This document shows, one piece after another, positions 7,688 through 26,472 of a stretch of 45,317 nt of DNA. The stretch covers positions 1 through 45,317 of the IMG/VR virus record IMGVR_UViG_3300049255_000231. One strand, given 5' to 3'. The DNA is from a virus. Position numbers and translations under genes: made by a program. Each line of letters starts with the position of its first letter. The stretch's first letter is position 1. The notes under the pieces were generated by a model that was given only the letters and a program-made list of their open reading frames with translations, did not search any database and had not been told where the DNA came from.

Positions 7688-7696
7688 GGACGGACC

Positions 7697-9235: not shown

Positions 9236-9250
9236 TAGGGAGCACAGGCC

Positions 9251-11946: not shown

Positions 11947-11949
11947 CGC

Positions 11950-13230
11950 ATGTCGGGATCGCTGCTTTCGAACCTGTCCGCGGCGCTCGGCGGCCTGCTC
12001 GGCTGGCGCGTGGCGCTGCTGCCGGGCTCGTTCAACGGCGTGCCGTTCTACATGAACACGGCCCGAGGCTCCGGCGGCCGCCGTCTGGTCACGCACGAGT
12101 TTCCGCTGCGCGACATTCCGGCCCTGGAAGACCTCGGGCAGAAGGCCAACGAATTCCGCCTGCAGGTGTTCGTCGTCGGCAACGGCTACATGGCGCAACG
12201 GGATGCGCTGATTGCCGCGTGCCAGGGCAGTGCGAACGCGGGTATCCTGGTGCACCCGACGCAGGGCGTCATCAGTTGCCGGGCCGGTATCATCGACTGG
12301 CTGGAGAACCCGAAGGACCAGGGCGGCTTCTGCGTCTTCGAGATCGACTTCCACAAGGAGGGCGATCAGCCGGCGCCGTTCGGCTCGGACAGCGTGAGCC
12401 AGCTGCTCGGCGGGGTCACCTCGATGATCTCCCTGGCCGTCGGCGTCTACGCCACGGTCAGCGCGATCGTGCAGAACCCGGCACTGCTGCTGGGCTACGC
12501 GTCGACGTGGCTGGGCGAGCTGGGAGGCGCGCTGCTCGGGCTGCCGGCGGCCACGATCGTCGGGCTGTCGCTGGCCGTCGGCACGATTACCCAGGCGGTG
12601 ATCAACGACCTCGCGACCGGGAACGCGGTGCAGAACGTGTTCCAGGCGGCCGCGGCCAACGTCATTACGGCGCAGACGCCGCCGGTCGATCCGAACGACC
12701 CGATCCAGGGCATCACGCCGCTGATCGCCGCGGCGGCCGATCTCACGGGCGGGCTGGCGGCGCTGGCCACCTGGGGCGATACGCTGACACCCCCGGTCGG
12801 GGCCGGCGCCGCCCTGGCCACGCTGCAGGCGCAGCAGGCGGCGATCGTCGCTTTGGTCGAGGGCGCGGCGACCCTCGCGGTCATGACCGTCTACGCCAAC
12901 ACGGACTTCGTCAGCGCCAATGCGGCAACCGCGGCGCGGGCGCAGGTGCTGTCGTTCGTTGACCGCCAGTCGGCCGCCGCCAATCTGGCAGGCAACGATA
13001 ATCTCTATCGCGCATGGCTCGCTCTCGGCGCGCTGGCGATGCAGGACTTCATCCAGCGTGCGCAGAACCTGCCATCGCTGGTCGCCTACAAAATTCCCGC
13101 CAGCCGATCGAGCCTCGTGCTGGCGCAGCTCTGGTACCAGGACGCCAATCGGGCCACCGAGTTGGAGGTATTGAACGATGCACCGCATCCTTTGTTCATG
13201 CCGACTTCCGGCGTGAGGCTGTCGGTATGA
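11950..13230 (+). CDS. Baseplate protein with DNA-circularisation N-terminal domain (Mu gpN-like)
   Basis: 426 residues. The first 130 residues carry the gpN/DNA_circ_N pattern: GSFNGVPFYMNT, then HEFPLRDIPALEDLGQKANEF, VFVVGNGYMAQRDALIAAC, and LVHPTQGVISC. The rest is Ala-rich and helical. In Mu the protein belongs to the baseplate hub/tail tip and was first linked to DNA circularisation. It follows the tape measure by 3 bases and overlaps the next gene by ATGA. Confidence 0.88.
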   Translation: MSGSLLSNLSAALGGLLGWRVALLPGSFNGVPFYMNTARGSGGRRLVTHEFPLRDIPALEDLGQKANEFRLQVFVVGNGYMAQRDALIAACQGSANAGILVHPTQGVISCRAGIIDWLENPKDQGGFCVFEIDFHKEGDQPAPFGSDSVSQLLGGVTSMISLAVGVYATVSAIVQNPALLLGYASTWLGELGGALLGLPAATIVGLSLAVGTITQAVINDLATGNAVQNVFQAAAANVITAQTPPVDPNDPIQGITPLIAAAADLTGGLAALATWGDTLTPPVGAGAALATLQAQQAAIVALVEGAATLAVMTVYANTDFVSANAATAARAQVLSFVDRQSAAANLAGNDNLYRAWLALGALAMQDFIQRAQNLPSLVAYKIPASRSSLVLAQLWYQDANRATELEVLNDAPHPLFMPTSGVRLSV

Positions 13231-13478
13231 GCGATCGGTTTCGCGGCAGCGACCCGGCCGGCCGGCCGGCGGACTTCGGCGGCACGTTGCCGCCGCGCCG
13301 GCTGCGCCAACTGGAGGTGGCGCCGGATCCGCTGGCGCCGAGCCCGGGCTGCAGCGATGAACAGTGCGAACAGTGCGCGGTCCACGGATCGGACTGCGTG
13401 GCCTGCCTCATCCTGGGCGCGGTTTCGGGGGGCGTCGCCGTCCTGGTCGTGCTTGGGCTGCTTTGGGTTTTCGTGTGA
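13227..13478 (+). CDS. Small single-pass membrane protein inserted in baseplate operon
   Basis: 83 residues: a polar, Pro/Arg-rich N-terminus, then a cysteine cluster (CSDEQCEQCAVHGSDCVACL, five Cys within 20 residues), then a strong transmembrane helix (residues about 62-82) ending at the C-terminus. It overlaps gpN by ATGA and gpP by GTGA, so it is translated within the tail operon, yet Mu has no gene here. I do not recognise it. The Cys cluster could bind a metal, or the protein could tether tail assembly to the inner membrane; both are guesses. Confidence 0.72.
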   Translation: MSDRFRGSDPAGRPADFGGTLPPRRLRQLEVAPDPLAPSPGCSDEQCEQCAVHGSDCVACLILGAVSGGVAVLVVLGLLWVFV

Positions 13479-14626
13479 CGGCGCCGCCCGATCAGATCTC
13501 GCTGGTGGTTGCCGGGCAGTCCTATACCGGCTGGAAGGAAATCAGCATCACGCGTGGCATCGATCGTTGCGTTTCCACGTTTTCCATGCTGACCATGGAC
13601 CGGCCGAGCGGCCCGATCGTGGCACCGTTCGATCCGATCCAGATCTATGCCAACACGGATCTGCTGCTGACCGGCCATGTCGAGACGGTCGAGATCGACC
13701 TCGACCGCGGCAGGCACGATGTTCGCATCACCGGGCACAGCCTGACCAAGGATCTGACCGACTGCACGCCGGACATCAAGCCGGGCCAGTATGCCGGGTT
13801 CACGGTTGCGGCGATCGCCAGGGCGATCTGCCAGCTGTTCAACATCACGGCGGTGATCCAGAGCGCCAATGCGAACGTCGTGGTGGAGAACACGAACCTG
13901 CAGCGTTCCGAGAGCGCGTTTCGCTTCCTCGAGCGGCTGTGCAACCTCGCGGGCGTGCTGACCACGGACAACCCGATGGGCCAGCTGGTGCTGACCGTCG
14001 CCGGTCAGGCCCGCAGCGCGACGCATCTGACCCAGGGCGGCAATCTGGAGCGGCTGCGCGGCTCGTTCAACGTCGCGCGCCGGTTCAGCGAGTACATCGT
14101 CAAGGGTCAGGCTGCCATCGGCTACGGCAATCCGTTCAACCTCGACGGCGCCGGTGGCACGACGGGATCGACGTCCGGAAAGGTGCAGACCGCGATGCAG
14201 GCCATGGCGATAGATGCGGGCGTGCCGCGCTACCGCCCGCACGTCACTCTGGCGGAAAGCCAGCTGACACCGCAGCAGCTGCAGGCGCGGGCGAACTGGC
14301 AGAGACAGTTCGCCTACGGGAAGTCGATCATCGTTCATGCCCGGCTGCGCGGGTTTCGTCAGGATAACGGAACGTTGTGGCAGCCGAACCTGATGATCCC
14401 GCTGACGGCGCCGGCGATCTATGCCGACGACGACGTGCTGATCGCCCAGGTGACCTATACGCTCGATGCGACATCGAACGGACATGTCACCGACCTCGTG
14501 CTCGGTCCGGTCGAGGGCTATACGCCGGATCCCGGCAGCGTGAAGCTGAAGAAGCAGAAGAAGGGCAAAAAGGGCAAGGCCGGCGCTGCCGGCTACAACT
14601 TCGACGGGGCGGGCGGCTTTCCATGA
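13475..14626 (+). CDS. Baseplate hub protein, Mu gpP (gp44)-like
   Basis: Forms the baseplate hub ring that carries the spike. Starting at GTG 13475, coupled to the upstream stop (GTGA), the product is 383 residues. Conserved pattern: ISLVVAGQSYTGWKEISITRGIDRC, FDPIQIYANTDLLLTGHVE, VRITGHSLTKDLTDC, typical of gp44/gpD hub proteins. The extreme C-terminus is lysine-rich (KLKKQKKGKKGKAG), which may contact DNA or the neighbouring spike protein. It overlaps the spike gene by ATGA. Confidence 0.9.
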   Translation: MTAPPDQISLVVAGQSYTGWKEISITRGIDRCVSTFSMLTMDRPSGPIVAPFDPIQIYANTDLLLTGHVETVEIDLDRGRHDVRITGHSLTKDLTDCTPDIKPGQYAGFTVAAIARAICQLFNITAVIQSANANVVVENTNLQRSESAFRFLERLCNLAGVLTTDNPMGQLVLTVAGQARSATHLTQGGNLERLRGSFNVARRFSEYIVKGQAAIGYGNPFNLDGAGGTTGSTSGKVQTAMQAMAIDAGVPRYRPHVTLAESQLTPQQLQARANWQRQFAYGKSIIVHARLRGFRQDNGTLWQPNLMIPLTAPAIYADDDVLIAQVTYTLDATSNGHVTDLVLGPVEGYTPDPGSVKLKKQKKGKKGKAGAAGYNFDGAGGFP

Positions 14627-15081
14627 GCGTTCCGGCCGATTCCAACCTGACGCGCGCGACCGTCACCAACGTGAAGATGGGCCAGCGCACCTTCATCCAG
14701 ATCAACGGTCTCGATGGCGTCACGCAAAACTGGGTCGAACTGCTGCTGCCGCCGGGCTACACGGCGCACCCCGTCGTGGGGGCGGACGTCGCGCTGTTTC
14801 AGGTGATGGGCAGCAGCGATCACGTGATCGCTCTGGGCGGCGATATGCTGGGCAATGCCGTCGCGGACCTCGCACCCGGCGAATTCGGCTTTAGCGACGG
14901 CAGCAACATGGTGCTGTTTCAGGGCGGTTATCTGAAACTGATCAGTCCGACCAAGGTGCGGGTGCAGGCGCCGCTGCTGGAGTGCACCGGCCAGATCACC
15001 GCGAACTGCGACGGCGCCTTCACCACGCTCTCACAACACGTGCATCCGGCGATCGATACGCCGCCGACGCCCGGCACCTGA
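14623..15081 (+). CDS. Baseplate spike protein, Mu gp45-like
   Basis: Membrane-piercing central spike. 152 residues: an OB-fold-like N-terminal half (residues 1-100: GQRTFIQINGLDGVTQNWVELLLPPGY) then a short beta-helical C-terminus with repeated strands (VRVQAPLLECTGQITANCDGAF). Near the end is an H-x-H motif (His139, Val140, His141). In the P2 and Mu spikes an HxH motif binds iron at the needle tip, so the tip is probably conserved here. Start overlaps the hub stop. Confidence 0.88.
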   Translation: MSVPADSNLTRATVTNVKMGQRTFIQINGLDGVTQNWVELLLPPGYTAHPVVGADVALFQVMGSSDHVIALGGDMLGNAVADLAPGEFGFSDGSNMVLFQGGYLKLISPTKVRVQAPLLECTGQITANCDGAFTTLSQHVHPAIDTPPTPGT

Positions 15082-15095
15082 AAGGCACTGTGCAA

Positions 15096-15512
15096 ATGGC
15101 ATATGTTTACGTGCAACGCACCGGCGAGCTGTTCGAGGCCGCCGGGCATGTGGTGGGCAACGGCTATTCCGGCCACGGCGAAGGCCTCAACAATCCGGAA
15201 TGGGAGGACAAGGTCGGCGCCGGACCGGTGCCCTGCGGCAAATATGCCATTGGATCGCCGCATACGCCGATCGACCATCTGGGGCCGGTTGCGCTGCCGC
15301 TGATCCCGGCGCCCGAGAACGACATGAAGGGCCGCTGCGGTTTCTTCATCCACGGCGACAATCAGTTCCTGAACCAGTCGGCATCGAACGGCTGCATCAT
15401 CCTGGTGCGTCCGGTGCGCGAGCTGCTGGCCTATCATGCCCGCGAGAAGCTGTTGATCGTCGTCGCCGAACGTGACGATGTCGCCGGGCTCTACAAGAGC
15501 ATGACGCCCTGA
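15096..15512 (+). CDS. DUF2778 / tlde1-like cell-wall protein in the baseplate operon
   Basis: 138 residues. The sequence matches the DUF2778 pattern: an N-terminal strand region with VVGNGYSGHGEGLNNP, a conserved GPVPCGKYAIG, then GRCGFFIHGDN (His about 86) and SASNGCIIL (Cys about 100). The His...S-x-G-C arrangement is that of L,D-transpeptidases and of the antibacterial effector Tlde1, which attacks peptidoglycan stem peptides. There is no signal peptide. Lying between the spike and gp46, it could be a virion-borne wall-modifying enzyme used during entry; an alternative is a lysis role. Confidence 0.8.
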   Translation: MAYVYVQRTGELFEAAGHVVGNGYSGHGEGLNNPEWEDKVGAGPVPCGKYAIGSPHTPIDHLGPVALPLIPAPENDMKGRCGFFIHGDNQFLNQSASNGCIILVRPVRELLAYHAREKLLIVVAERDDVAGLYKSMTP

Positions 15513-15532
15513 CGTTCTGGCGCTGATCGCCG

Positions 15533-15985
15533 ATGACCGATATCGCGCTGGTCTGGGACAATGTGAACGGCCGGGCTGATTTCGCGATCGTGAACGGCGA
15601 CCTGCAGATGGATGCCGGGCTGTGGACCGCGGTGCTGATCAGCCTGTTCTGCGATCGCCAGGCGGATCCGTCCGACATCATTCCCGACGGCAGCACCGAT
15701 CCGCGCGGCTGGTGGGGCGACACGCCGCCGGCCGGGGTCGATGCCGCCGGCATCGATCTGACGGGATCGAAACTGTGGCTGCTGCCGAAACTGCAGGTCG
15801 ACAACACGCTGCAGCAGGCCGAGGCCTATGTGACGCAGGCGCTGCAATGGATGATTGCCGACGGGGTCGCGACCGCGGTCAGCTGCGTCGCGTCGTATCC
15901 GCAGCGCGGCTGGCTCGGCCTGCAGATCACGATCCAACAGGGCGCCACGTCGACCGTTTACGATCTCCAATGGAGCGCCAGCTGA
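15533..15985 (+). CDS. Baseplate wedge protein, Mu gp46-like
   Basis: 150 residues matching GP46-type wedge proteins (lysozyme-like fold of T4 gp25). It begins DIALVWDNVNGRADFAIVNG and contains GSTDPRGWWGD with a Trp pair, then TLQQAEAYVTQALQWMIADG. It lies between the wall-active protein and gp47, in the order seen in Mu. Confidence 0.9.
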   Translation: MTDIALVWDNVNGRADFAIVNGDLQMDAGLWTAVLISLFCDRQADPSDIIPDGSTDPRGWWGDTPPAGVDAAGIDLTGSKLWLLPKLQVDNTLQQAEAYVTQALQWMIADGVATAVSCVASYPQRGWLGLQITIQQGATSTVYDLQWSAS

Positions 15986-15988
15986 GCC

Positions 15989-17095
15989 ATGCCGTTTCCG
16001 GTGCCTTCGCGCGATGATCTGACGGCACAGATCACCGCGGACCAACAGGTCCGGATCGCCGGCGCCGATACCTCGCTGCGCTATTCGGTGCTCGGGATCC
16101 TGGCCAAGGTCTGGGCCGGGCCGCTGGCGCTGATCTGGGGTTTCCTCGGCCGCTACTGGTCGAAGCAGTTCTTCGTCGACAGTGCGGAAAGCCCGTATCT
16201 GGAACGCCGCCTCGCGCCTTATGGCATCGTGCCGGAAAATGCGGCGCCGGCGACCGGCAATGTGATCTTCACCGGCACCTCGGGCGTTTCGATCCCGATC
16301 CCGATCGGCACCATCGTGCAGACGCAGGACGGCTCGATCCAGTATGCGACGCTGGCGGCGGCGACGATGACCACCGGAACCGTCACCGTTGCGGTGGCCG
16401 CCACGGTGGGCAGCAGTGCCAGCAATCAGCCGGCCGGCACCATCCTCGCGCTCTATGCGGCGATCGCCGGGGTCAACCCGGCAGCGATCGTCGACCCGAG
16501 CGGCTTGTCCGGCGGTGCGGATGCCGAGACCGACACCAGTCTGCGCACCCGTGGCATCGCGCGTCTGGCCCAGCCGCCACAGGGCGGCGCGTGGTTCGAC
16601 TATGTCGCCTGGGCCAAGACGGTGCCGGGGGTTACCCGGGTGTGGGTTTATCCGCTCAATCGCGGTGCGGGGACGGTCGACGTGACCTTCGTGATGGACG
16701 GCCGAACCAACATCGTGCCGCTGTCGGGCGACGTCGCCAACGTGCAGGCGGCGCTCAACAATCTGCGGCCGGTCACCGCCAACGTGCTGGTCTGGGCGCC
16801 AACGACGGCCGCGCTGACCATCACGATCGCCAACCTGAACCCGAACAACGCGCAGACGCAGGCGAACATCACGGCGCAGCTGAACCAGCTGGCGGATTCC
16901 GTGGCGCCAGGCGGCGCACAATATGGCGACGGCGTCTCGACCGCCGCGCCGGGCGGCGTGCTGGATCTGTCGCAGATCTATGCGGCGATCGAGGCGGCCG
17001 GCGGTATCGTCGACTTCGATCTGACGGCGCCGACCGTCGATACCACGTACGGCACCGGGGTGATCCCGGCGGCGCCGACGATCACGATTACATGA
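15989..17095 (+). CDS. Baseplate wedge protein, Mu gp47 / baseplate J-like
   Basis: 368-residue baseplate J family protein. Typical features: LTAQITADQQVRIAGADTSL near the N-terminus, SGLSGGADAETDTSLRTRG in the middle (residues about 170-188), then RLAQPPQGGAWFDYVAWAK with VPGVTRVWVYP. It forms the baseplate wedge with gp46 and gp48. It starts 3 bases after gp46 and overlaps the next gene by ATGA. Confidence 0.93.
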   Translation: MPFPVPSRDDLTAQITADQQVRIAGADTSLRYSVLGILAKVWAGPLALIWGFLGRYWSKQFFVDSAESPYLERRLAPYGIVPENAAPATGNVIFTGTSGVSIPIPIGTIVQTQDGSIQYATLAAATMTTGTVTVAVAATVGSSASNQPAGTILALYAAIAGVNPAAIVDPSGLSGGADAETDTSLRTRGIARLAQPPQGGAWFDYVAWAKTVPGVTRVWVYPLNRGAGTVDVTFVMDGRTNIVPLSGDVANVQAALNNLRPVTANVLVWAPTTAALTITIANLNPNNAQTQANITAQLNQLADSVAPGGAQYGDGVSTAAPGGVLDLSQIYAAIEAAGGIVDFDLTAPTVDTTYGTGVIPAAPTITIT

Positions 17096-17691
17096 GCTTT
17101 CTGTCCGGGCTGGGGCCGCCGGATTTTCTCCGGGCGCTGCTCGATGCGCCGCCGCCGGGACGCGCCTTCAGCGGCGATCCCGATACGGTGCAGGCCCAGA
17201 TGTTCACCCCGCCCGGGGATGCGCTGGCGGCGGTGCACGCGGGCGCGGTGCAGTTGCTCGAGATCGAGGCCGACCCGTTCTACACGATCGAGATGCTGTC
17301 GGAGTGGGAAACGGATTACGGCTTGCCGGATCCCTGCACGCCGTTGGCGGCGACGATGGATCAGCGCCGGGCGGCGCTGCTGGCCAAGATCGCCGCGATC
17401 GGCGGCCAGTCGATCGCCTACTTCACCGCGGTGGCCGCGGCGCTCGGCTACGCGATCACCATCAGCGAGCCGCAGCCGTTCCGTTTCGGGTCGCGCTTTG
17501 GCGGCGCGCTGCTGGGGCCCGGCTGGCAGTTCGTCTGGCGGGTCAGCGTGCCCACCATCACGATCCGCTTCTTCACGCTCGGCAGCAGCGGCTTCGGCGA
17601 GCCGTTCGCGGTGGCCAGCGCCACCGATCTGCAGTGCCGGCTTAACGCGCTGAAGCCGGCCCACACGGTCATTCAGTTCATTTTTGGGTAA
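17092..17691 (+). CDS. Baseplate/tail protein, Mu gp48-like (YmfQ/DUF2313)
   Basis: 199 residues starting at the ATG that overlaps the gp47 stop. Conserved pattern: LLDAPPPGRAFS, then FYTIEMLSEWETDYGLPDPC, RRAALLAKIAAIGGQS and YFTAVAAALGYAITI. These proteins are the last conserved baseplate component and connect the wedge to the fibre-bearing proteins, which follow immediately. Confidence 0.9.
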   Translation: MSFLSGLGPPDFLRALLDAPPPGRAFSGDPDTVQAQMFTPPGDALAAVHAGAVQLLEIEADPFYTIEMLSEWETDYGLPDPCTPLAATMDQRRAALLAKIAAIGGQSIAYFTAVAAALGYAITISEPQPFRFGSRFGGALLGPGWQFVWRVSVPTITIRFFTLGSSGFGEPFAVASATDLQCRLNALKPAHTVIQFIFG

Positions 17692-17700
17692 CAACGATCC

Positions 17701-18666
17701 ATGCATCTGATCGACAACGGCACCCAGGTCGCCTCGCTTGGCGCGCCGCAGGCGGCGTCCGGCACGCCGGGCTATGCCGCAACCGGCGCGCCGGGCACGT
17801 TCACCGAAACGATCCTGGATCCCGACATCTTCAATTCGACGATGATGGAAATCATCAACGTCGTCCTCGCCTCCGGCCAGACGCTCAATCGCACGAACAA
17901 TGCGCAGCTGCTGGCTGCGATCCCTTCGGTCGGTGTGCCGGTCGGCCAATGCCGCCTGTCGGTCGCCAGCACGACCCAGCTGCTGCTGTCGCCGCATCAG
18001 GGGCGGTTCCTGACCATCAACGGCATTTCCTGGCCGATCCCGGTGGCGGGCGTGACGCTCGCCAATACCGGCCTCACGGCGAGCACGCTCTATTACATCT
18101 ACGCCTTCATGTCCTCCGGCACGATGACGCTGGAAGCAGTCACCACCACCCATGCCACCGATACGACCGCGGCAAATTACGGCGTCGAGATAAAATCCGG
18201 CGACAGTTCCCGTTCGCTGGTTGGCATGATCTATACAGATGCCAGCACGCATTTCGTGGATTCCGTAACCTCGCGCACCTGCCTGAACTGGTTTGGCCGG
18301 CGCGCGCTGAACTGCGTCGCCGTAAACAGCTCGTTCGGCATCAGCAACACAACGATTGCCGACGTGGCGGCCGGATTGCACCTGCAGTGGCTGACCTGGT
18401 CAGATGAGGCCGTCTACACGGCGGCCAACGGCAATGCCTCCAACAGCACCGGCGGAGCGGCAACCGTGCTGCAGCTCTACGTCGATGGCGCAGCGGCGGG
18501 CGCGCAGAACGTGTTCAACGTCTCGGCGGGCGGCAGCTCCGGTTCGTACAACAGCTCGACGGTCGCGGCATTTTCGGAAGGGCTGCATACCAGCGAGATT
18601 TACGGCAACGTGAGCGCAGGCACGGCCACCTGCAACTGTCAGACCAACGCTCTCGTGCGCGGCTGA
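17701..18666 (+). CDS. Tail fibre-type protein
   Basis: 321 residues, Ser/Thr/Ala/Gly-rich and beta-predicted, starting 9 bases after gp48. The first 60 residues (GTFTETILDPDIFNSTMMEIINVVLASGQTL is the region, read in parts) resemble the baseplate-attachment end of fibre proteins. The remainder (TASTLYYIYAFMSSGTMTLEAV and WFGRRALNCVAVNSSFGIS) is similar in style to fibre shaft/tip domains of alphaproteobacterial phages. Position after gp48 supports a host-recognition role. Confidence 0.75.
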   Translation: MHLIDNGTQVASLGAPQAASGTPGYAATGAPGTFTETILDPDIFNSTMMEIINVVLASGQTLNRTNNAQLLAAIPSVGVPVGQCRLSVASTTQLLLSPHQGRFLTINGISWPIPVAGVTLANTGLTASTLYYIYAFMSSGTMTLEAVTTTHATDTTAANYGVEIKSGDSSRSLVGMIYTDASTHFVDSVTSRTCLNWFGRRALNCVAVNSSFGISNTTIADVAAGLHLQWLTWSDEAVYTAANGNASNSTGGAATVLQLYVDGAAAGAQNVFNVSAGGSSGSYNSSTVAAFSEGLHTSEIYGNVSAGTATCNCQTNALVRG

Positions 18667-18667
18667 C

Positions 18668-19033
18668 ATGAGTGTCTGGCTCGCGATCGGTGGCGCGGTC
18701 ATTGACGGCGTGCTCACGGAAATGCCCGGTCTCGCGCGCCAGGCCGTTGCGGCGGTTGTTTCTGGCACAGTCATGACGTTGCCCGAAGGCGTCTCGTTCG
18801 GCCCGTTCGCGGCCGCCGCGGGTCCGTTCGCGGCGTTCGGCCTGTTCACCGCGGCGACCGGCGGCAGCATGACCAACCAGGGCACCATCGTGCCGCTGTC
18901 GGTCGCCGCCGGGCAGTATCTGTCATTTGGAGCGGGAGGCTACGCGGTCGGGAGCGCGGCCGCGCCGGGTGGCGACGTGCTGACCATCGGCGGCGTGCCG
19001 CTGACCCTCGCCGGGCAGCCGTTGCAGACATGA
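18668..19033 (+). CDS. Small tail-region protein, unknown
   Basis: 121 residues, strongly Ala/Gly-rich and hydrophobic, with no signal peptide. A hydrophobic stretch (FAAAAGPFAAFGLFTAATGG, residues about 46-65) could be a buried helix or membrane segment; the end (GGDVLTIGGVPLTLAGQPLQT) resembles beta-strands of fibre accessory proteins. It overlaps the next gene by ATGA, so it belongs to the fibre operon. Function unknown. Confidence 0.62.
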   Translation: MSVWLAIGGAVIDGVLTEMPGLARQAVAAVVSGTVMTLPEGVSFGPFAAAAGPFAAFGLFTAATGGSMTNQGTIVPLSVAAGQYLSFGAGGYAVGSAAAPGGDVLTIGGVPLTLAGQPLQT

Positions 19034-19680
19034 CGGATCTTCTGGACGTTCCGGACGGTTCGCCGGCAGAGCCCGGCGACCTGGTCATGGTGCTGCGGGC
19101 CGGCGCGCCGATGACGATCACGATCGCCGAGTTGGCCGCGACATTTCAGGATGCGATCAACCTTGCCGCGGGAACGTTGGTCGGCCGTTCCAGCAACACG
19201 GCTGGAGGTCCGCAGCAAATCACATTCGGCCCGGGTGCGACGCTCGCAGGCACCGAATTTCTGTTGAACGGCGAAGACCACCTCGGCTTTACGTTGTTGG
19301 CGGCCGCGGACTTCAATTGCGAACTGATCGTCAACAGCGCGGGGCAACCCGCGCGCCTGCCGTTCCTGCTCGCTGCGCTGGGCATCCAATCGGTCGCGAG
19401 CAGTCTCGCGGCTATCGCGGGCGGCCAGTCCGCGGCCTTGCCGCTGACCGCGCGGGTCAACGTCGTCACTACCGTGCCATCCGGCGGGGGCGTGATTTTG
19501 ACGGTGGGAACTGGCGGTTCGCAGCAGATCTTCAATCGTTGCGGCACCGGGCAGGAGCTTGCGGTTTATCCGACCGTCGGCAGAGACATCGAGGGCAACG
19601 CGACAAACGTCGCGGTGACAATCCCGGATGGCGGCTCGGCGACGTTCACCAACGACGGCACGATGTTCCGGGTGTCATGA
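19030..19680 (+). CDS. Tail fibre/collar-type protein
   Basis: 216 residues without signal peptide. The N-terminus (LLDVPDGSPAEPGDLVMVLR) is of a kind often seen in short fibre or adaptor proteins. The C-terminal half (VVTTVPSGGGVILTVGTGGS, ELAVYPTVGRDIEGNATNVA, SATFTNDGTMFRV) is a beta-rich tip-like module. It overlaps genes on both sides by ATGA, a coupled arrangement. Confidence 0.68.
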   Translation: MTDLLDVPDGSPAEPGDLVMVLRAGAPMTITIAELAATFQDAINLAAGTLVGRSSNTAGGPQQITFGPGATLAGTEFLLNGEDHLGFTLLAAADFNCELIVNSAGQPARLPFLLAALGIQSVASSLAAIAGGQSAALPLTARVNVVTTVPSGGGVILTVGTGGSQQIFNRCGTGQELAVYPTVGRDIEGNATNVAVTIPDGGSATFTNDGTMFRVS

Positions 19681-21464
19681 TCCGTTCAGTGCTCTGGCTC
19701 CTGATCTTTGCGGCCGGCCTGCTGCGCGGCGCTTTGGCCGCCGACGTCGGGCCGGCCATGTTGCAGAACGCCAACAAATTTGGCCCAGGGCAGACATTCA
19801 ACAGTGGAACGATCGTGCCGTCGGCGCGGTATGACGCCACAGCGTTCACGAACGGCGGCACGCCGTGCGTCTGGGATGGCGCACACGACGACTATCCCTG
19901 CATCGCAGCAGCGATCAGTGCCGCGGCCGCCGCGGCCGATGCGGTGGTCTCGCTTCCGGCTGGCATGATCCAGCTGTCTCAGCCGCTCTCTGCGCCGAGT
20001 GGGATGACGATCGCTGGCGTCGGCAGGGCGACCGTGCTGACGCAAACATCCGGAAATTCGTCGAGCCCTTATCTGCTAAGTGAATCCTCGGTTTCCAACG
20101 TGACGATCCGCGATCTGGTGTTCGATGGCGGAAACCAGCAGGGCACGCAGACAAATCCGCTCACGCAGACCTTTCGGACGACCGACGTCCATTTCATCAA
20201 CGTGACGTGGCAAAACGCTGCCGGCATCGGCCATAACGGATCGGAGGACAACGGGCTGGTTTTCCTCAACCCGATCGTCCAGCATGTTGGCAACCGGTGG
20301 AAGGCGACCTTGGCCTCGGGCGACCGCCACCAGGGAATCAGTGAGTGCTGCGGCGATCTGGTGAACTACGGTTTCGACGTCAGCGTCATCGGCGGTAAGT
20401 TCGCCGATATCGGCCTCGACGCTGTGAGCACAACAGGCCTCACGCGGTTTGTTGGGGTGGGAAACCGTTTCAATCTGGCGAATAACCAGGTTTCGCAGAT
20501 GCCGACGGCCACCGGATTCGCCGCGTTCTATTTGTCCCAGGACGTGAACTCCACGATTGCCGACAGCGTGGTGACCGGACCCACCGGAAATTGCATCGAC
20601 GCGCCCGGGCTGCGCAACTCCTCGATCGAAGGAAACACGCTCGTCCAGTGCGGCGGCGCCGGGATTGGACTGTTCCAGGGCACCGATCAGGCGGACTTCA
20701 GCGGGTCGTTGGTCGCGGGAGTTCTGACGGTTAACACCATGATCTCAGGCACGGTCGCGGCCGGCCAGGCGCTTGGCCAGGCCGCAGGGGCCGCCACGGC
20801 CATTCTTCCCGGGACTTACATCGTTTCGAGCATTTCGGGATCCGGCAATGGCTCGACCTGGCAGACCAATAAGTTGCAGACCGTCGCGCTGGAGAACCTT
20901 CAGTCCGGCACCAATCAGAGGGCGGTCAACGTCAGTGGAAATACGGTCGTTGACAGCAATATTTACTTCATTACAGGGGCCCCATGGCAAGGCGCGATCA
21001 CGATCGGCAACGGTGTGCCGGACGGCGTGACGGTCGAGGGCAACACGCTTATCGATCAACAGGTTTCGCCGACGATGCAGTATGGGATTGCCATCGAAAA
21101 TGGCAACGCCAGCTGGGCCGTGGCGCCGATTAATCTGACGATCGGAATCAACACGATTGTGAATCCGGCGATCGCACAATTTCTCGCGCGGCCCACTTTC
21201 ACGGTGTCGGGCAGCTCGGCGACGTCGCCAGCGGGGTCCGATCGCGTTGGCACGTTCACGGCCGGTACGACCGGGCTCAACACGGTCACGATTACGCCGG
21301 GCGGCGGCGAGATCCCGATCCCGCCAACCGGATGGATTTGCCGAGGGGTCGACGTCGCGATCGGGTCAGTCCTGGAACAATCTGGCGGGAGCCAGACGAC
21401 TGCCGTCATCACTGGCCCGGCAATCGCCGGCGACACCATCAACCTCACCTGCTCATCGTTCTGA
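19677..21464 (+). CDS. Right-handed beta-helix (pectate-lyase-fold) protein with signal peptide
   Basis: 595 residues starting at the ATG that overlaps the upstream stop. Residues 1-22 look like a Sec signal peptide: a basic start, a hydrophobic core, and ALA-A before ADVGPAM. Residues 90-345 show parallel beta-helix repeats (SNVTIRDLVFDGGN, VHFINVTWQNA, SVIGGKFADIGL, SIEGNTLVQCGG). About residues 345-400 (FSGSLVAGVLTVNTMISGTV ... GTYIVSSISGSG) form an inserted beta module of the kind also seen in the capsid protein. The C-terminal region is another beta domain. A tailspike-like depolymerase or adhesin is likely; export of a tail protein by signal peptide is unusual. Confidence 0.78.
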   Translation: MIRSVLWLLIFAAGLLRGALAADVGPAMLQNANKFGPGQTFNSGTIVPSARYDATAFTNGGTPCVWDGAHDDYPCIAAAISAAAAAADAVVSLPAGMIQLSQPLSAPSGMTIAGVGRATVLTQTSGNSSSPYLLSESSVSNVTIRDLVFDGGNQQGTQTNPLTQTFRTTDVHFINVTWQNAAGIGHNGSEDNGLVFLNPIVQHVGNRWKATLASGDRHQGISECCGDLVNYGFDVSVIGGKFADIGLDAVSTTGLTRFVGVGNRFNLANNQVSQMPTATGFAAFYLSQDVNSTIADSVVTGPTGNCIDAPGLRNSSIEGNTLVQCGGAGIGLFQGTDQADFSGSLVAGVLTVNTMISGTVAAGQALGQAAGAATAILPGTYIVSSISGSGNGSTWQTNKLQTVALENLQSGTNQRAVNVSGNTVVDSNIYFITGAPWQGAITIGNGVPDGVTVEGNTLIDQQVSPTMQYGIAIENGNASWAVAPINLTIGINTIVNPAIAQFLARPTFTVSGSSATSPAGSDRVGTFTAGTTGLNTVTITPGGGEIPIPPTGWICRGVDVAIGSVLEQSGGSQTTAVITGPAIAGDTINLTCSSF

Positions 21465-21476
21465 GGAATATGCCCC

Positions 21477-22415
21477 ATGACCGCGAAGTTTCTGCGCAAT
21501 CTGCGCTTTGCGGCGTTGCTTTGCCTGCTTCCGACCGCCGTTGGCGCGGAAACGAGTTTTGTCACGACCGCCCGCGCCAGCCAGACAATCGCCTATCTCG
21601 CAAGCGGCACGTTCGTTAAGGCAAATTTCCCAGGTTACACGTGGGTCAAAGTGTGGGCCTATCCGGGCGGCACCGGCGGCGCTTTTGGTTTTGCCTGTCC
21701 GAACTCGACGGTTTGCTCAGGATCGTCCGGACCGGGCGGAGGCTCCCTCGGTTACTGGGAAGGGCCGCTGTCCTCGCTGCCGACGAGCGTCACGGTGACG
21801 GTCGGGGTCGGCGGCGCTGGGGCAACCTCGGGCACATCCGGGCTGTCGGGCACGCTGGGCGGTGCGTCGTCGTTCGGCAGCCTGGCATTGAGCTATCCTG
21901 GCTGCCAGGGGACGATCGGTATCGCGACCACCTTGACGAACGGGGGGTGCGGTGCTGGCATAAACGGTACGACTGGTCAGTTCGATGACACGGTTAGCGG
22001 GCAGGGGGCGTTCACGCCCTATGCGGGCGGCGCCGGAGGTGGAAGTGCTGCGACTGGCGTTTCTGGGAGCGCTGGGCCAGCCTTGTTCGCCGGAAACGGC
22101 GCGGGCGCGGGCGGCGGAGTTGCGGCCGGCGGCGTCGCTCAGACAGGATCCAACCCGCAAGGCAATTACTCCGGCTTCCAGTACGGCTCGACGGCTGCGG
22201 GCGCCACCGGGGCGAACGGGCTCGCGGGCTCTGGGATCGCGATGGGTGGTGGCGGTTATGGCGGCGGCGCGGGCGTCGGTCAGGCCGCAGGTGCTGGAGG
22301 AGCCGGCGGCTTCCCTGGCGGCCCAGGTGGATCCGGCGGAGATGGCTATAACGGCCAGACGCCCGGAAACGGTGGCGCCGGTGCCAATGGCGAGGTCGTT
22401 CTCCTGTTGCAGTAA
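21477..22415 (+). CDS. Glycine-rich adhesin-like protein with signal peptide
   Basis: 312 residues. Residues 1-24 form a likely Sec signal peptide (positively charged start, FAALLCLLPTAVGA, cleavage before ETS). The rest begins with a strand-rich part (YTWVKVWAYPGGTGG) and then becomes a Gly/Ala-rich repeat region to the C-terminus, with GGGGYGGGAG and GPGGSGGDGYNG motifs. This is the pattern of the glycine-rich receptor-binding domains at tips of phage fibres (polyglycine sandwiches). It ends ANGEVVLLLQ, a typical closing strand. The combination with a signal peptide suggests export to the periplasm or surface. Confidence 0.75.
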   Translation: MTAKFLRNLRFAALLCLLPTAVGAETSFVTTARASQTIAYLASGTFVKANFPGYTWVKVWAYPGGTGGAFGFACPNSTVCSGSSGPGGGSLGYWEGPLSSLPTSVTVTVGVGGAGATSGTSGLSGTLGGASSFGSLALSYPGCQGTIGIATTLTNGGCGAGINGTTGQFDDTVSGQGAFTPYAGGAGGGSAATGVSGSAGPALFAGNGAGAGGGVAAGGVAQTGSNPQGNYSGFQYGSTAAGATGANGLAGSGIAMGGGGYGGGAGVGQAAGAGGAGGFPGGPGGSGGDGYNGQTPGNGGAGANGEVVLLLQ

Positions 22416-22465
22416 AGTCCGCAGGGTGTGGCCAGGACCGCGCCCCTTACCCGGAGAAGAAACCA

Positions 22466-22996
22466 ATGATCAGACGGTATCTTGGCCGGGCCGCGCTGGC
22501 GTTGGCGCTGCTCGTGCTGCTGGCCGGCGTCGCAGAGGCTTACGTCAATTACAGCGATGCGGCGGGCGCATCCTGGTCTGGCACGGTCATCGGCTGGTTG
22601 AACGGATCCTCGCTGCCTGTGCCGGTCAGTTCCGCAAATCCCTTGCCGGTGACCGGCGTCAATGCGGCGCCGGCCTCGATCGCACCGGTGGCCGCGTCTT
22701 CTGCGCTTGAATCAGGCCACGTTCTTAAAGCGTCGGGCGGCACGTTCTATGGGGTCCAGGTCAACACGACGACATCTCCCGAGTGGGTGATGCTCTTCAA
22801 CCAGGCCACTCTTCCAGGCAACGGCACGGTGACACCCGCCTTGTGGTGGCAGGTCCCGGCCAACGCCACGCTGTCGGTCAACGAAGCTCCGGGTCTCGCC
22901 TATGGTGCGGGCATCACCGTCGCTTGTTCGACGACGGGGCCTTTTACATTGACAACGAGTACGCTTTGCACCTTCGGCGGCGGCGTCGTGCAATGA
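22466..22996 (+). CDS. Tail-region beta protein with signal peptide
   Basis: 176 residues with an AAAGAAACC-adjacent ribosome region and an N-terminal signal peptide (RRYLGRAALALALLVLLAGV, then AEA before YVNYS). The mature part contains SGGTFYGVQVNTTTSPEWVM and WWQVPANATLSVNEAPGL, a family I associate with small beta-sandwich proteins in phage fibre regions. Third signal-peptide gene in a row. It is coupled by ATGA to a 10-codon ORF and then to the next gene. Confidence 0.75.
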   Translation: MIRRYLGRAALALALLVLLAGVAEAYVNYSDAAGASWSGTVIGWLNGSSLPVPVSSANPLPVTGVNAAPASIAPVAASSALESGHVLKASGGTFYGVQVNTTTSPEWVMLFNQATLPGNGTVTPALWWQVPANATLSVNEAPGLAYGAGITVACSTTGPFTLTTSTLCTFGGGVVQ

Positions 22997-23025
22997 CGCG
23001 CCTGCTGCTGATCGCGACCGCATGA
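22993..23025 (+). CDS. 10-codon overlapping mini-ORF
   Basis: Encodes MTRLLLIATA. Its ATG overlaps the upstream stop (ATGA) and its stop overlaps the next ATG (ATGA), so ribosomes could pass through all three frames by re-initiation. The peptide looks like the start of a signal peptide, so it may be the stub of a deleted gene retained as a coupling bridge. Not independently supported. Confidence 0.3.
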   Translation: MTRLLLIATA

Positions 23026-23387
23026 GCGCCTTCGTCTGGACGCCATCCGGCCACCGGATCATTCCGCTGTGGGATTATGCCGGAACCTCGCCGCGCGGCC
23101 AGCCGGGCACGCCGCTACCGTTGCGCTGGCCGGACAAGCCGGCGCTGGCGGTGTTCGATTTCTCGCTGGATGCGACGGGCCTGCTCGGCAGTGCGACCGA
23201 TACGATGACGCTGGCGATCGGCAGCACCGGGCCCCTTGCTCTGGTCATGAGCACCGTGCTCGCCGGCGTGGCGACGTTGTGGCTCGGCGATGGCACGCCG
23301 GGCGGCGATAACGTGGTCGACCTGACGCTCGCAACCGCCTCGGGCCGGCTGGTGCGCCGGTTCATCCGGATCCTGGTGACGCCATGA
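23022..23387 (+). CDS. Small Ig-like tail protein (fibre-adaptor type), copy 1
   Basis: 121 residues, beta-rich, no signal peptide. The second half (TMTLAIGSTGPLALVMSTVL ... VATLWLGDGTPGGDNVVDLT) matches the small beta-sandwich repeated as phage fibre-tail adaptor domains. The next gene encodes a similar domain, so the pair probably arose by duplication or works as a heteromer. ATGA coupling on both sides. Confidence 0.68.
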   Translation: MSAFVWTPSGHRIIPLWDYAGTSPRGQPGTPLPLRWPDKPALAVFDFSLDATGLLGSATDTMTLAIGSTGPLALVMSTVLAGVATLWLGDGTPGGDNVVDLTLATASGRLVRRFIRILVTP

Positions 23388-23737
23388 CGCCGATCGCCAC
23401 GGTCACCCGCTTTGATGGTGTGCCGGGATCCTTCGGCGCCAAATCGCCGGACGACGTGCTGGACTATGGGTTCAACTATCCGGCGCTCGCAGCGGGCGAA
23501 AGTCTGACCGGCACGCCGGCGGTGACCGTCGAGCCGCCCGGCCTGACGGTCAACAGCGCGACGATCGCGGGCACGATGGCCGTGCTGTGGCTCGCCGGCG
23601 GCGTGCCCGGAACCAGCTACACGATCGCTTGCACCATCAATACGACACAGGGCCGCACGCTGGCATCGGGCGCTGTGCTCCATGTCGGCCCGGTCGGCCT
23701 GGATGATCCGTCTGCCATCGCGCCCGGCGGTCCATGA
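23384..23737 (+). CDS. Phage fibre-tail adaptor-like protein, copy 2
   Basis: 117 residues containing KSPDDVLDYGFNYPALAAGE, then LTVNSATIAGTMAVLWLAGG and TSYTIACTINTTQGRTL. This is a clear match in pattern to small phage Ig-like fibre-tail adaptor proteins. The strand pattern parallels the preceding gene. It overlaps both neighbours by four bases. Confidence 0.72.
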   Translation: MTPIATVTRFDGVPGSFGAKSPDDVLDYGFNYPALAAGESLTGTPAVTVEPPGLTVNSATIAGTMAVLWLAGGVPGTSYTIACTINTTQGRTLASGAVLHVGPVGLDDPSAIAPGGP

Positions 23738-24111
23738 GCGGCCCAGCCTCTGACGCGACTGGTCTTCAATGGCTCATCAACCTGGGCGTCGTGGCGCTCG
23801 CGGGGTTATGCGGCTGGGCCCAGGTGCAGATCAACTGGTTGCGCCAGGACAATGAGCGTACCGAGAAGCGGGCCGTGGAGGGGACGCAGGCGCTTCGGAA
23901 TGAGTTCAACACGCGTTATGAAGATGCGGAAAAGGTAAGAGACCGCCAGCACGAGGATAACAGAGCCGAGCAGACGGCCATGCGATCCTTGATCAAGGCC
24001 ACTGCCGATGAGGCGACCGTCGAACACCGGCTCATGCGCGCTTCGATCGAAAAAATGAACGAGCGCCTCAGCGATCTTGCGTCGGCGATTGCGGGCGTGA
24101 CAAAGCGGTGA
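23734..24111 (+). CDS. Membrane-anchored coiled-coil protein (lysis region)
   Basis: 125 residues: a transmembrane helix at about residues 11-30 (LQWLINLGVVALAGLCGWAQ) followed by about 90 residues of charged heptad-like helix (RQDNERTEKRAVEG ... EHRLMRASIEKMNERLSDL). The topology, one N-terminal membrane helix plus a long coiled coil, resembles inner-membrane spanin subunits or tail/lysis accessory proteins. It begins the block of membrane and lysis-type genes and is coupled by GTGA to the next gene. Confidence 0.7.
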   Translation: MSGPASDATGLQWLINLGVVALAGLCGWAQVQINWLRQDNERTEKRAVEGTQALRNEFNTRYEDAEKVRDRQHEDNRAEQTAMRSLIKATADEATVEHRLMRASIEKMNERLSDLASAIAGVTKR

Positions 24112-24491
24112 AGACGGCCGCGCAGCTCCAGGAAGAGCTGGACGAGGCCAACGAAACGATCCGTTGCCTGCGCGAGACGCTGGCGGAATCCCGGACCGCC
24201 ATGCGGGTGCCGGGCGTGCATCTGACCCGATCCGAGCGCGCCATACTCTGGTCGCTGAAGGCCGGGAACACGGTCACCAAAGAGTATTTGAGAAAGCGCA
24301 TCGATGCCGCGCTCGAGCGGTGGGACGACGTTTTCGGCATCGAATCGGTCACTGTTCACCTCGTCCGACTGCGCAGGAAACTGGCGCAGCTGACGCCGCC
24401 GATCGTTATCGAAAACGATTTCGGTGTGGGCTTCTTTCTCGACAAGGAGAACCGCGCCCGGCTCGCGCAGCTTCTTGAGGATCCGGAATAA
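24108..24491 (+). CDS. OmpR/PhoB-type winged-helix protein without receiver domain
   Basis: 127 residues from a GTG start overlapping the upstream stop. Residues 1-30 form a short coiled coil (QLQEELDEANETIRCLRETL). Residues 35-115 match the response-regulator C-terminal DNA-binding domain: HLTRSERAILWSLKAGNTVT, KRIDAALE, then SVTVHLVRLRRKLAQL as recognition-helix region, and IENDFGVGFFL as the beta-hairpin wing. No receiver domain and no kinase are nearby. A DNA-binding regulator inside the late lysis block is unexpected; it could control late genes or a host regulon. Confidence 0.72.
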   Translation: MKTAAQLQEELDEANETIRCLRETLAESRTAMRVPGVHLTRSERAILWSLKAGNTVTKEYLRKRIDAALERWDDVFGIESVTVHLVRLRRKLAQLTPPIVIENDFGVGFFLDKENRARLAQLLEDPE

Positions 24492-24521
24492 AACCCAAAA
24501 TTCCTGAAGGAACTCTCTTCC

Positions 24522-25022
24522 ATGCTGAACCTGCTGAAATACGCCGAAGCCCGGCTGGGCGAGGCGTCGACCTTCAACGCCATCGCGATCGCTCTGGCGG
24601 CGCTTCACTACAATGTCGATCCCGGGCTTTTGCATACGCTCACCGTGTGGGGTGCGATGGTCGCGACGGTGCTCGGCGCGATCATTCCGGAGATCGGCAC
24701 GGGGCGCACGCCGCTCGGCGTCGCCTCCGACGCCTTTGCCGCCTTCGTGGCAGCGATCCGGGCAGCACCCCCGGGCACGTTTCCGACCGCGACGGCCGCC
24801 GGTACCGCGGATCCCACGCGGTCGACATCAGGATCGATGCCGCTGCGGATGGCGCTGTTCGGGGCCGCGACCGCCCTGCTGTTGCTGGCTCGCCGCAGCC
24901 TGCCGTTGCCGGCCTGGCTCATCCTGCTGGCCGCGGCCGTCTGTGCGGCGTTGATCGTTGCGATCCTGCGCAGCCACGCCCGCACCTTCCGTTCGGAAAG
25001 AGCGTCCGCCGCGCGGGCCTGA
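24522..25022 (+). CDS. Multi-pass membrane protein, candidate holin
   Basis: 166 residues with an AAGGAA ribosome site. Predicted membrane segments: residues 37-58 (HTLTVWGAMVATVLGAIIPE, with a weaker preceding stretch at 18-29), 106-124 (LRMALFGAATALLLLARR) and 127-150 (LPAWLILLAAAVCAALIVAI), with a basic C-terminus. A Pro/Thr/Ala linker separates the pairs. Position after the wHTH gene and before a lipoprotein suits a holin-like permeabiliser, but no family motif proves it. Confidence 0.62.
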   Translation: MLNLLKYAEARLGEASTFNAIAIALAALHYNVDPGLLHTLTVWGAMVATVLGAIIPEIGTGRTPLGVASDAFAAFVAAIRAAPPGTFPTATAAGTADPTRSTSGSMPLRMALFGAATALLLLARRSLPLPAWLILLAAAVCAALIVAILRSHARTFRSERASAARA

Positions 25023-25053
25023 CACCTATCCCTCCACAAAAAGGACTGAAATC

Positions 25054-25605
25054 ATGATCGTGACCACGCGCCGCCGCATCCTCGGCGGCACCTCTCTGCT
25101 TGCGCTCGCCGCCGTTGGCCTGATGGCCGGTTGCAGCAGCTCCGCCGCCACCACGCCGGCGCAGATCGTCGCCGACGCCGCCGGCCTCGTCTCCGCGCTG
25201 CAGTCGGATCTGCCGTTGATCGTGGCCGCTGACCCGAACCTGATGGATGCCCAGACCGAGGCCGCGGTGCAGATGGATCTCGCCAAGGCCCAGGCGCTTG
25301 CCGCGCAGGTTACGCCGCAGATGACCGCGACGCAGGGTGCCACGACGCTGAAGACCGTCGAAGCCTATATCAACGTGGCGCTGGAGGCAGCATCCGCGGT
25401 CGCCACTGCCGGCGCCGGCTCGCCGCTGGCCGCCTACGCGCTGCCGATCCAGGCGGCGATCGTGCTCGCCGGGGTGATCGAGGCCTGGATCAATGCCACG
25501 CTGGGCGCCGGCACGACCACGGCCAGCGCACGCGCGAAAGCGGTTGCGCCCGGAATGACGCCGGAGAAGGCCCGCGTCATCCTCGGCGTCAAGACGGTCG
25601 CGTGA
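25054..25605 (+). CDS. Phage-encoded lipoprotein
   Basis: 183 residues starting at the ATG after AAAAGGAC. The N-terminus MIVTTRRRILGGTSLLALAA, followed by a LMAGC lipobox with Cys at about residue 27, indicates a lipoprotein; the triple Arg before the hydrophobic core might also suit Tat export. The mature part is Ala-rich and helical with no known domain. Next to a holin candidate it could be an o-spanin-like or superinfection-exclusion protein. Overlaps the next gene by 4 bases. Confidence 0.75.
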   Translation: MIVTTRRRILGGTSLLALAAVGLMAGCSSSAATTPAQIVADAAGLVSALQSDLPLIVAADPNLMDAQTEAAVQMDLAKAQALAAQVTPQMTATQGATTLKTVEAYINVALEAASAVATAGAGSPLAAYALPIQAAIVLAGVIEAWINATLGAGTTTASARAKAVAPGMTPEKARVILGVKTVA

Positions 25606-26306
25606 ACCGTCGCCACGGCGCCATTCACACGCCGCGGCCGGACGGCATCGCCCGTTTGGCCGCGCGCATGGGGATGGCCGAGGCGCCGATTCCGAACTGG
25701 TTCGCGCGTTTCAGGGCCGACGGCGATCCGCTCGGCAACGACCAGTTCGGCGATTGCGCCGATGCCGCCGATTGCCAGCTGATCCGGCTATGGGGTGGCC
25801 GGGCCGATCGGGCGATGGCGCTGAGCCGGTATCAAATGAACACCGGGTTCGATCCGGCAACCGGGCAGCCCGATAACGGCACCGACACGTCGCAGGACAT
25901 GGCATCCTGGTGTGCCGCGCCGATCCTCGATCTCGATGGCCGGCCGCGGCCGATCTATTGGGCCTGGGTCGATCATGCCGATGAGACGGAGATCCGTGCC
26001 GCATTGGCGCGATTCCCCCTCGCCATCTCGGTCGGACTGCCGGCGGCGATCGCCGACGATCCCGACCGCTGGGGCGAGGACCCGCAGCCCGGCTGGACGC
26101 CCGATGAGGGTCACCGGATCGTTCTGGGCTTCATGAACGATTTCGTTCGCGCTGATGCGGCTCATGCTGCTCGCGGTCGACGTGCCGATCCCGCATCCGG
26201 CGACGGCGCCGGCGGAACTGCAGTGGTCGGGGCTCGATTACGCCGCGCTCGCGCGGGATCTGGCGACGCTGCGGGCATAGCATGCCGCGCCTGCTGCTGC
26301 AGCTGA
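25602..26306 (+). CDS. Papain-like Cys/His protein, probably frameshifted at its 3' end
   Basis: GTG-started frame of 234 codons. Conserved-looking parts: DPLGNDQFGDCADAADCQLI with candidate nucleophile Cys52, RYQMNTGFDPATGQPDNGTD, and DEGHRIVLGF with candidate His171. This is the arrangement of a papain-like fold family found in phages and bacteria. After about residue 185 the frame becomes Arg/Ala-rich junk (AAHAARGRRADPASGDGAGG), while a conserved C-terminus continues in the +1 frame (26155-26280). So the protein is truncated or disrupted. It could be a lysis enzyme remnant; no other endolysin is seen. Confidence 0.62.
   Translation: MNRRHGAIHTPRPDGIARLAARMGMAEAPIPNWFARFRADGDPLGNDQFGDCADAADCQLIRLWGGRADRAMALSRYQMNTGFDPATGQPDNGTDTSQDMASWCAAPILDLDGRPRPIYWAWVDHADETEIRAALARFPLAISVGLPAAIADDPDRWGEDPQPGWTPDEGHRIVLGFMNDFVRADAAHAARGRRADPASGDGAGGTAVVGARLRRARAGSGDAAGIACRACCCS
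26155..26280 (+). pseudogene. Detached C-terminal fragment of the Cys/His protein
   Basis: In the +1 frame relative to the upstream gene, an ATG at 26155 opens MRLMLLAVDVPIPHPATAPA, then ELQWSGLDYAALARDLATLRA and a stop. This reads like the natural end of a protein of the upstream type, implying a deletion or single-base indel near 26140-26160. A separate 41-residue gene is the alternative. Confidence 0.45.
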
Positions 26307-26413
26307 TCCTCTGCCTGTCGCCTGTGGTGTTCACGGCGCCGGCGGGACGGCCGCATCGATGCCTGCTGCGCGGGCTGATGCTGCAGTCGCGTGGCGGCCG
26401 GGCGCCGCCGTAA
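26282..26413 (+). CDS. Small secreted-type peptide (43 aa)
   Basis: ATG at 26282, one base after the previous stop. Product MPRLLLQLILCLSPVVFTAP followed by a basic tail (RPHRCLLRGLMLQSRGGRAPP in relatives' style, ending at TAA 26411). The first 20 residues look like a signal peptide or membrane anchor. Last ORF before the terminator. It may be a small o-spanin-like or lysis peptide; low certainty. Confidence 0.42.
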   Translation: MPRLLLQLILCLSPVVFTAPAGRPHRCLLRGLMLQSRGGRAPP

Positions 26414-26439
26414 AGATCGATCGTTATCTGTGATCAGAA

Positions 26440-26472
26440 GCCGCCGGCCCTTCGGGGTCGGCGGCTTTTTTT
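26440..26472 (+). terminator. Rho-independent terminator of the late operon
   Basis: An 11-bp stem (GCCGCCGGCCC pairing with GGGTCGGCGGC, one G-T wobble) with a TTCG tetraloop, followed by seven T. It marks the end of rightward late transcription that begins before the left edge of the window. In the other direction the hairpin is not followed by a T run. Confidence 0.93.

Follow-up and report, generated by a model that had tools for sequence, protein, structure and literature searches.

The coat proteins of filamentous phages (Inoviridae) are virion proteins that are made with Sec signal peptides. Assembly of a filamentous virion takes place at the membrane as the particle is extruded, whereas for tailed phages the accepted view is that virions are put together entirely in the cytoplasm.

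In the tailed phage lambda, the gene for Lom, a protein with a signal peptide, lies between the tail-tip and fibre genes (PMC12309495). The locus described here resembles that arrangement in that its fibre region appears to encode exported products. It differs in that Lom is a single outer-membrane beta-barrel expressed in the lysogen, whereas the present locus carries several consecutive proteins of fibre, spike or adhesin type in what is probably a late operon. The fibre module of podophage GP4 offers a further comparison, as gp77-like adaptors and a weakly gp80-like protein are found around the genes considered here, although the phage that carries them appears to be contractile-tailed. Our search of the open-access full-text literature returned work on exported or disulfide-bonded proteins of phages or hosts, and none on signal peptides in tailed-phage fibre modules.

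The DNA analysed here (the window) comprises the 45,317 bases of a virus record. An initial reading of this sequence, referred to below as the original prediction, proposed that three consecutive proteins of the fibre region begin with Sec signal peptides. It suggested that they might be exported, might be attached to virions after export, or might form a secreted receptor-blocking, decoy or conversion system.

Three consecutive genes encode proteins with Sec-type signal peptides

The ORFs at positions 19677-21464, 21477-22415 and 22466-22996 are consecutive and co-directional, with the spans originally described, and each begins with a strong signal peptide of the Sec/signal peptidase I type. 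The N-terminus of the first protein reads MIRSVLWLLIFAAGLLRGALA up to the predicted cleavage site and continues with ADV; the second reads MTAKFLRNLRFAALLCLLPTAVGA followed by ETS, and the third MIRRYLGRAALALALLVLLAGVAEA followed by YVN. Cleavage is thus predicted after ALA, VGA and AEA, respectively. All three proteins have a positive n-region, a hydrophobic h-region and a small-x-small cleavage site, and none has a lipobox with cysteine at +1, a feature that is present in a lipoprotein encoded further downstream (25054).

Signal peptides were called with a purpose-written scorer (positive n-region, hydrophobic h-region and the -3/-1 rule) rather than with SignalP, and the gene caller was likewise home-made. 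Known Escherichia coli Sec signals scored 6.0-8.2 on calibration, soluble cytoplasmic proteins less than 0.4 and LacY 2.6. The three proteins score 7.47, 7.82 and 9.40, and a score of at least 5.5 is reached by only four ORFs of the window, namely these three and the lipoprotein, and by 2.2% of 1,543 called ORFs from 104 loci. With residues 1-45 of each protein shuffled, its own score was attained in 0.32%, 0.36% and 0.02% of trials for proteins 1, 2 and 3, respectively.

The original prediction had pointed to downstream starts that omit the peptides as the observation that would speak against it, and no better-supported start of this kind is visible in the three genes. Shine-Dalgarno-like motifs precede the signal-including ATG codons of the second (GAGGA) and third (GGAG) genes. 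The start of the first overlaps the stop codon of the preceding gene (ATGA, 19677-19680), and its sole internal ATG near the front, at 19758, lacks a Shine-Dalgarno-like motif.

Protein 1 (19677-21464, + strand like all window features below; 595 aa) has its signal peptide at 19677-19739 and a mature part from 19740 with eight cysteines. It was originally described as a beta-helix protein, and this description finds weak support in a right-handed beta-helix match (Pfam Beta_helix, E 0.0028, below cut-off), which is the only candidate for a fibre or attachment domain within the three window proteins themselves. A secreted beta-helix protein encoded on a chromosome, outside any prophage (L161/L219), shares 39% identity with protein 1. 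Protein 2 (21477-22415, 312 aa; signal peptide 21477-21548) is glycine-rich and adhesin-like, with four mature cysteines. Protein 3 (22466-22996, 176 aa; signal peptide 22466-22540) has a C-terminal domain from about 22619 and two mature cysteines, Cys154 and Cys168, whose positions would fit a disulfide. Searches with the domain of protein 3 gave no PHROG at E 0.01 and no convincing PDB sequence match, and Pfam returned nothing for this protein; on these comparisons the domain represents a phage family that has not been catalogued (alignment A2). AlphaFold single-sequence models of proteins 1 and 3 were unusable (pLDDT 35-38), and the beta-sandwich fold originally described for protein 3 is putative.

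The genes lie within a tail-to-lysis run

The window carries lambda-type head genes (portal, S49 protease, decoration protein and capsid E) and a putative contractile tail, the latter recognized by a sheath match (E 8e-6, below its cut-off) and by DNA-circulation and baseplate J proteins. Its genes are ordered head, tail, and then the fibre module with lysis-type genes. The closest genome-level relative found is a prophage in an Acetobacteraceae metagenome-assembled genome (MAG; L085, baseplate J 49% identical), and because of this relationship the host of the window phage is likely to be a member of the Acetobacteraceae. As the relatives are prophages, the phage family appears to be temperate. 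An identical baseplate J occurs in a contig from another sample (L002, IMGVR_UViG_3300049215_000578), which stops just past that gene, before the fibre module.

The three genes are placed in the tail module, between the baseplate and lysis genes. Downstream of baseplate J (15989) lies a fibre anchor protein without a signal peptide (17701-18666, 321 aa; PHROG tail fiber protein, E 1.2e-6; signal score -3.0), which is presumed to be the baseplate-proximal part. It is followed by two further proteins without signal peptides: a 121 aa protein resembling Podophage GP4 fiber I gp80 (18668-19033; PF23140, E 7.9e-4, below cut-off) and a 216 aa fibre-region protein (19030-19680) whose stop codon is the one that overlaps the start of the first signal peptide gene. 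Beyond protein 3 are two copies of a GP4 gp77-like fibre-tail adaptor, again without signal peptides, at 23022-23387 (PF23148, E 2.9e-7) and 23384-23737 (PF23148, E 4.2e-22; PDB 8jou_D, E 3.3e-6). These adaptors are tandem and diverged, and represent a podophage part within an apparently contractile-tailed phage. The lipoprotein gene (25054-25605; lipobox LMAGC, signal score 6.56) also belongs to the tail-to-lysis run. Its family is common to the window and to an Acetobacteraceae prophage (L200), where the homologue lies 1611 downstream of gp48; both copies are near lysis genes.

A terminator-like hairpin with a 15-pair stem and a following T run (26436-26469) closes the run. Our consensus scan of the + strand from 17000 to 26436, which covered promoters of the sigma-70 type, revealed no promoter beyond chance and no convincing terminator ahead of this hairpin. 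The absence of such elements points to transcription of the three genes late, together with the tail-to-lysis run, and not as separate units.

Signal peptides recur in fibre modules of other phages

Scans of viral contigs and tblastn searches of phages with proteins 1 and 3 individually gave no relatives. These were instead obtained from 249 Acetobacteraceae genomes, which yielded homologues of the C-terminal part of protein 3, and from a scan of viral contigs with the family alignment, which added 16 further homologues. The sequence base consisted mostly of contigs and MAGs, and phylogenetic independence was handled by clustering only. With the signal-bearing relatives as queries, tblastn found no cultured phage carrying the same proteins.

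Relatives of the window proteins also carry signal peptides, a point that the original prediction had proposed as a check. Signal-bearing relatives of protein 3 lie beside tail genes in phage modules, and more signal peptide genes often come after them. In two siphophage-type prophages a protein 3 homologue directly follows the tail-tip genes (signal score 8.9 in L163 and a weaker 4.3 in L164), and after it comes a glycine-rich protein with a signal peptide. Pairs or triplets of signal peptide genes are present in four DUF2460-anchored siphophage-type Acetobacteraceae loci (L163, L164, L235 and L243). A Mu-type prophage (L165) encodes three such proteins (846, 753 and 405 aa) after its tail genes. 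Longer runs occur in L329, with seven genes scoring above 4 (7295-17086), in L331 (504, 151, 898 and 1554 aa) and in L327 (285, 157, 534 and 753 aa).

Among Acetobacteraceae Mu-type prophages, non-lipoprotein signal peptides were found in 15 of 152 fibre-region proteins (at least 150 aa, encoded downstream of Mu gp48-type genes) versus 1 of 171 upstream tail proteins (Fisher p=1e-4). When start codons could be chosen freely and the threshold was tightened, the counts are 11/152 and 1/171 (p=0.002). Outside this group, 3 of 56 general viral fibre genes matching the fibre of phage L061 have signal peptides, so that the trait is that of a minority yet is not confined to one clade. None was seen in seven other alphaproteobacterial and four gammaproteobacterial loci, numbers too small to claim clade restriction. 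Judged from these sequences, a signal peptide on fibre proteins is a recurring minority architecture that is enriched in fibre modules and found beyond one clade.

Two apparent exceptions were set aside. The tailspike of L185 had seemed to lack a signal peptide through a miscalled start codon, and an upstream ATG adds a probable signal; in L328 the signal is cut off by the end of the contig.

Several neighbouring observations concern the surroundings of these genes. A secreted relative of the third L165 protein is encoded between dnaK and grpE, on the opposite strand, in genome G186 (L166:4402-5628). In L007 (786-4647) three signal peptide genes are flanked by truncated and full baseplate-W-like copies (MSDIALRWDVYAADLAIEAG... 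and MGDIALRWDVYAADLAIEAG...), an arrangement that would suit insertion of the cassette by recombination or duplication. An outer-membrane-protein-like gene (AADLVVKAPQ..., C-terminal aromatic residue) adjoins the signal-bearing fibre genes of L327 (8773-9630) and recalls lambda Lom. The C-terminal half of a signal-bearing protein in L235 (6793-8493) reads as an SGNH/GDSL-type esterase (GDSIT...GTNDIG...DGLHPT); this protein has seven mature cysteines, one of the few odd counts.

Cysteine pairing accompanies the signal peptides

Exported proteins of Gram-negative bacteria favour even numbers of cysteines (PMC7678975). The mature cysteine counts of the three window proteins (8, 4 and 2) are all even, and the same bias is evident in the sets of signal-bearing proteins compared here, which were chosen without regard to cysteines. 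In the Acetobacteraceae-centred set, among cysteine-containing proteins, even mature counts were found in 22 of 25 with a signal peptide versus 103 of 225 tail and fibre proteins without one (p=7e-5). In a wider set of 53 signal-bearing fibre-module proteins, 44 of the 49 with cysteines have even mature counts, compared with 187 of 417 controls (p=5e-10). The bias persists when each homology cluster is represented by a single signal-bearing protein (24/28 versus 45%, p=2e-5).

Within the protein 3 family, paired cysteines are present in all 14 members with a signal peptide and in none of the five without (L330, L332, L334, L337 and L342, which have zero or one cysteine). The 14 comprise 13 with intact N-termini and L328, whose cysteines are paired; without L328 the association gives Fisher p=1.2e-4. 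In the 13, the pair lies inside the domain, as C-STTG...C-TF in the window protein and L327 and as TPxxC...STTGC in the others. Glutamine at +1 after a small-x-Ala site, a residue that the scorer does not consider, is found in 40 of 191 cases versus 42 of 1,055 controls (p=1e-13).

Because of the even-cysteine bias and the cysteine pair linked to the signal peptide, the products most likely reach the oxidizing periplasm. Taken together with the glutamine bias, these features make export to an oxidizing compartment the most economical reading, and one that we regard as very probable. What the sequences show directly is that the signals are present, that homologues also carry them and that a disulfide signature goes with them.

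Virion-fibre domains lie behind signal peptides in other phages

A signal-bearing protein of L061 contains a Phage Tail Collar domain (E 8.7e-25). In L331, a signal peptide of 20 residues is followed by a tail-fibre N-terminal domain: residues 21-145 align with positions 2-118 of phrog_1640 (E 3.6e-8), and the domain also aligns with residues 2-120 of tailspike Dpo31 (E 6e-12). This domain likens the L331 protein to the tailspike/depolymerase Dpo31 and to podophage fibres (Cobetia phage Carin1 and Bordetella BPP-1 Bbp9), with the difference that in annotated tail proteins it begins at residue 2, in Dpo31 without a signal peptide, whereas in L331 the 20-residue signal stands ahead of it. Searching with the L331 fibre returned that protein and no relative.

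The L331 phage (genome G772) is a 62.9-kb podophage record that is taken as complete because of its 470-bp terminal repeat. This genome has only two matches to the fibre N-terminal domain, both in signal-bearing proteins, and no copy lacking a signal peptide was found in it. All of the large fibre- or spike-like proteins of this phage carry signal peptides. If none of them joined virions, the phage would be left without a recognizable large receptor-binding protein, although small or unrecognized ones may exist.

By reading, tailspike-like sequence stands behind the signal peptide in L179, L180, L208 and L209. A pectate-lyase-type stretch with GAxxDGxxDD-like spacing is present in all four, and FxPGQxLxAAQL in L179, L180 and L208. 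Behind its cleavage site, the L208 protein aligns with a tailspike without a signal peptide in L183.

Discussion

We propose that the signal-bearing proteins of the window are fibres or spikes that are exported and become attached to virions at lysis, a chain of events to which, as a whole, we assign a probability of about one half. The three genes would encode the distal components of the tail fibres, those that face the host, in a contractile-tailed phage whose host is probably a member of the Acetobacteraceae, and would be expressed late together with the tail genes. Sec would export the products, signal peptidase I would cut after ALA, VGA and AEA, and folding and disulfide formation would take place in the periplasm, while the signal-less anchor and adaptor parts (17701, 18668, 23022 and 23384) would remain with the tail in the cytoplasm. 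Lysis by holin and endolysin would then bring the virions together with the spikes and adhesins of the periplasm, which would most likely dock on them, and surplus protein may bind or cut glycans in free form. The most fibre-like cases (L061 and L331) belong to phages other than that of the window, and it is from sequence that we infer joining to virions, as we do export itself, docking and any enzymatic activity. Docking would also require that virions meet the exported proteins only after the inner membrane opens, and receptor binding by the window phage could fall to the signal-less anchor (17701) alone.

The alternative that deserves most attention is that the proteins are exported yet never become virion parts, acting late in infection as soluble or surface proteins that cut or bind exopolysaccharide, cover receptors against loss of virions on debris, or serve as decoys. 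We consider this possible, if not the favoured explanation. Its case draws on the chromosomal secreted relative of protein 1 (L219), which counts against a virion role since it lies outside any prophage, on the protein 3-type secreted gene between dnaK and grpE (L166), on the esterase-like protein of L235, on the outer-membrane-type neighbour in L327, and on Lom, whose gene lies in a fibre region and whose product is exported (PMC12309495). The strict tail-operon position of the genes speaks against it, as do the fibre-type domains retained behind some signal peptides and the failure to find a signal-less fibre N-terminal domain in the complete genome G772. Exported virion fibres or spikes are favoured over soluble or surface decoys because virion-fibre domains sit behind signal peptides (L061 and L331), and docking at lysis is preferred mainly because the large fibre-like proteins of L331 all carry them. 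Of the interpretations originally offered, export and attachment after export therefore stay live, with the signals in homologues, the even cysteine counts and the disulfide-pair signature on their side. A dedicated receptor-blocking, decoy or conversion system is less well supported, given the late tail operon, the coupling to a tail gene, the lack of a detected promoter or terminator of its own and the virion-fibre domains in related signal-bearing proteins, although the chromosomal secreted relatives (L219 and L166) do lend something to a decoy or surface role.

A role in lysogenic conversion, with expression in the prophage state and a changed host surface, would have the precedent of Lom (PMC12309495) and would suit a phage family that appears temperate. 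We give this explanation little weight in view of the negative sigma-70-type promoter and terminator scan (17000-26436, + strand), the coupling of the first start codon to a tail gene and the presence of such genes in the complete 62.9-kb podophage record. It is also improbable that the hydrophobic N-termini go unused for export, remaining as anchors or remnants on proteins assembled in the cytoplasm as normal tailed-phage fibres are; the even-cysteine bias, the cysteine pair found only with the signal peptide in the protein 3 family and the bias for glutamine at +1 all argue otherwise. That the calls are an artefact of an alanine-rich genome is hardly credible: hydrophobic N-termini do arise in high-GC genomes and the scorer is home-made, but in the Acetobacteraceae Mu-type prophages only 1 of 171 upstream tail genes was positive, shuffled sequences reach the scores in fewer than 0.4% of trials, and the signals are conserved in homologues.

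Exported fibres and spikes that complete the virion may extend beyond the window phage. The same pattern in unrelated tailed phages suggests that part of their host-binding equipment is made outside the compartment in which virions are usually assembled. Our tentative generalization, which we hold with somewhat less than even confidence, is that some tailed phages use receptor-binding spikes or fibres that are exported by Sec and matured by disulfide formation in the periplasm, so that virions are completed at or after lysis. Such phages would possess a second, extracytoplasmic assembly line, with protein families existing in cytoplasmic forms, which have neither signal nor cysteine pair, and in exported forms, which have both a signal and a disulfide.

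Should the proteins prove soluble instead, they would represent an unrecognized multi-gene secreted arm within a phage tail operon. If fibres do use export, host factors such as SecA, signal peptidase and DsbA would help to determine the host range and infectivity of phages. Fibre annotation would then have to include a check for signal peptides, and these modules would be a source of disulfide-stabilized spikes and depolymerases.
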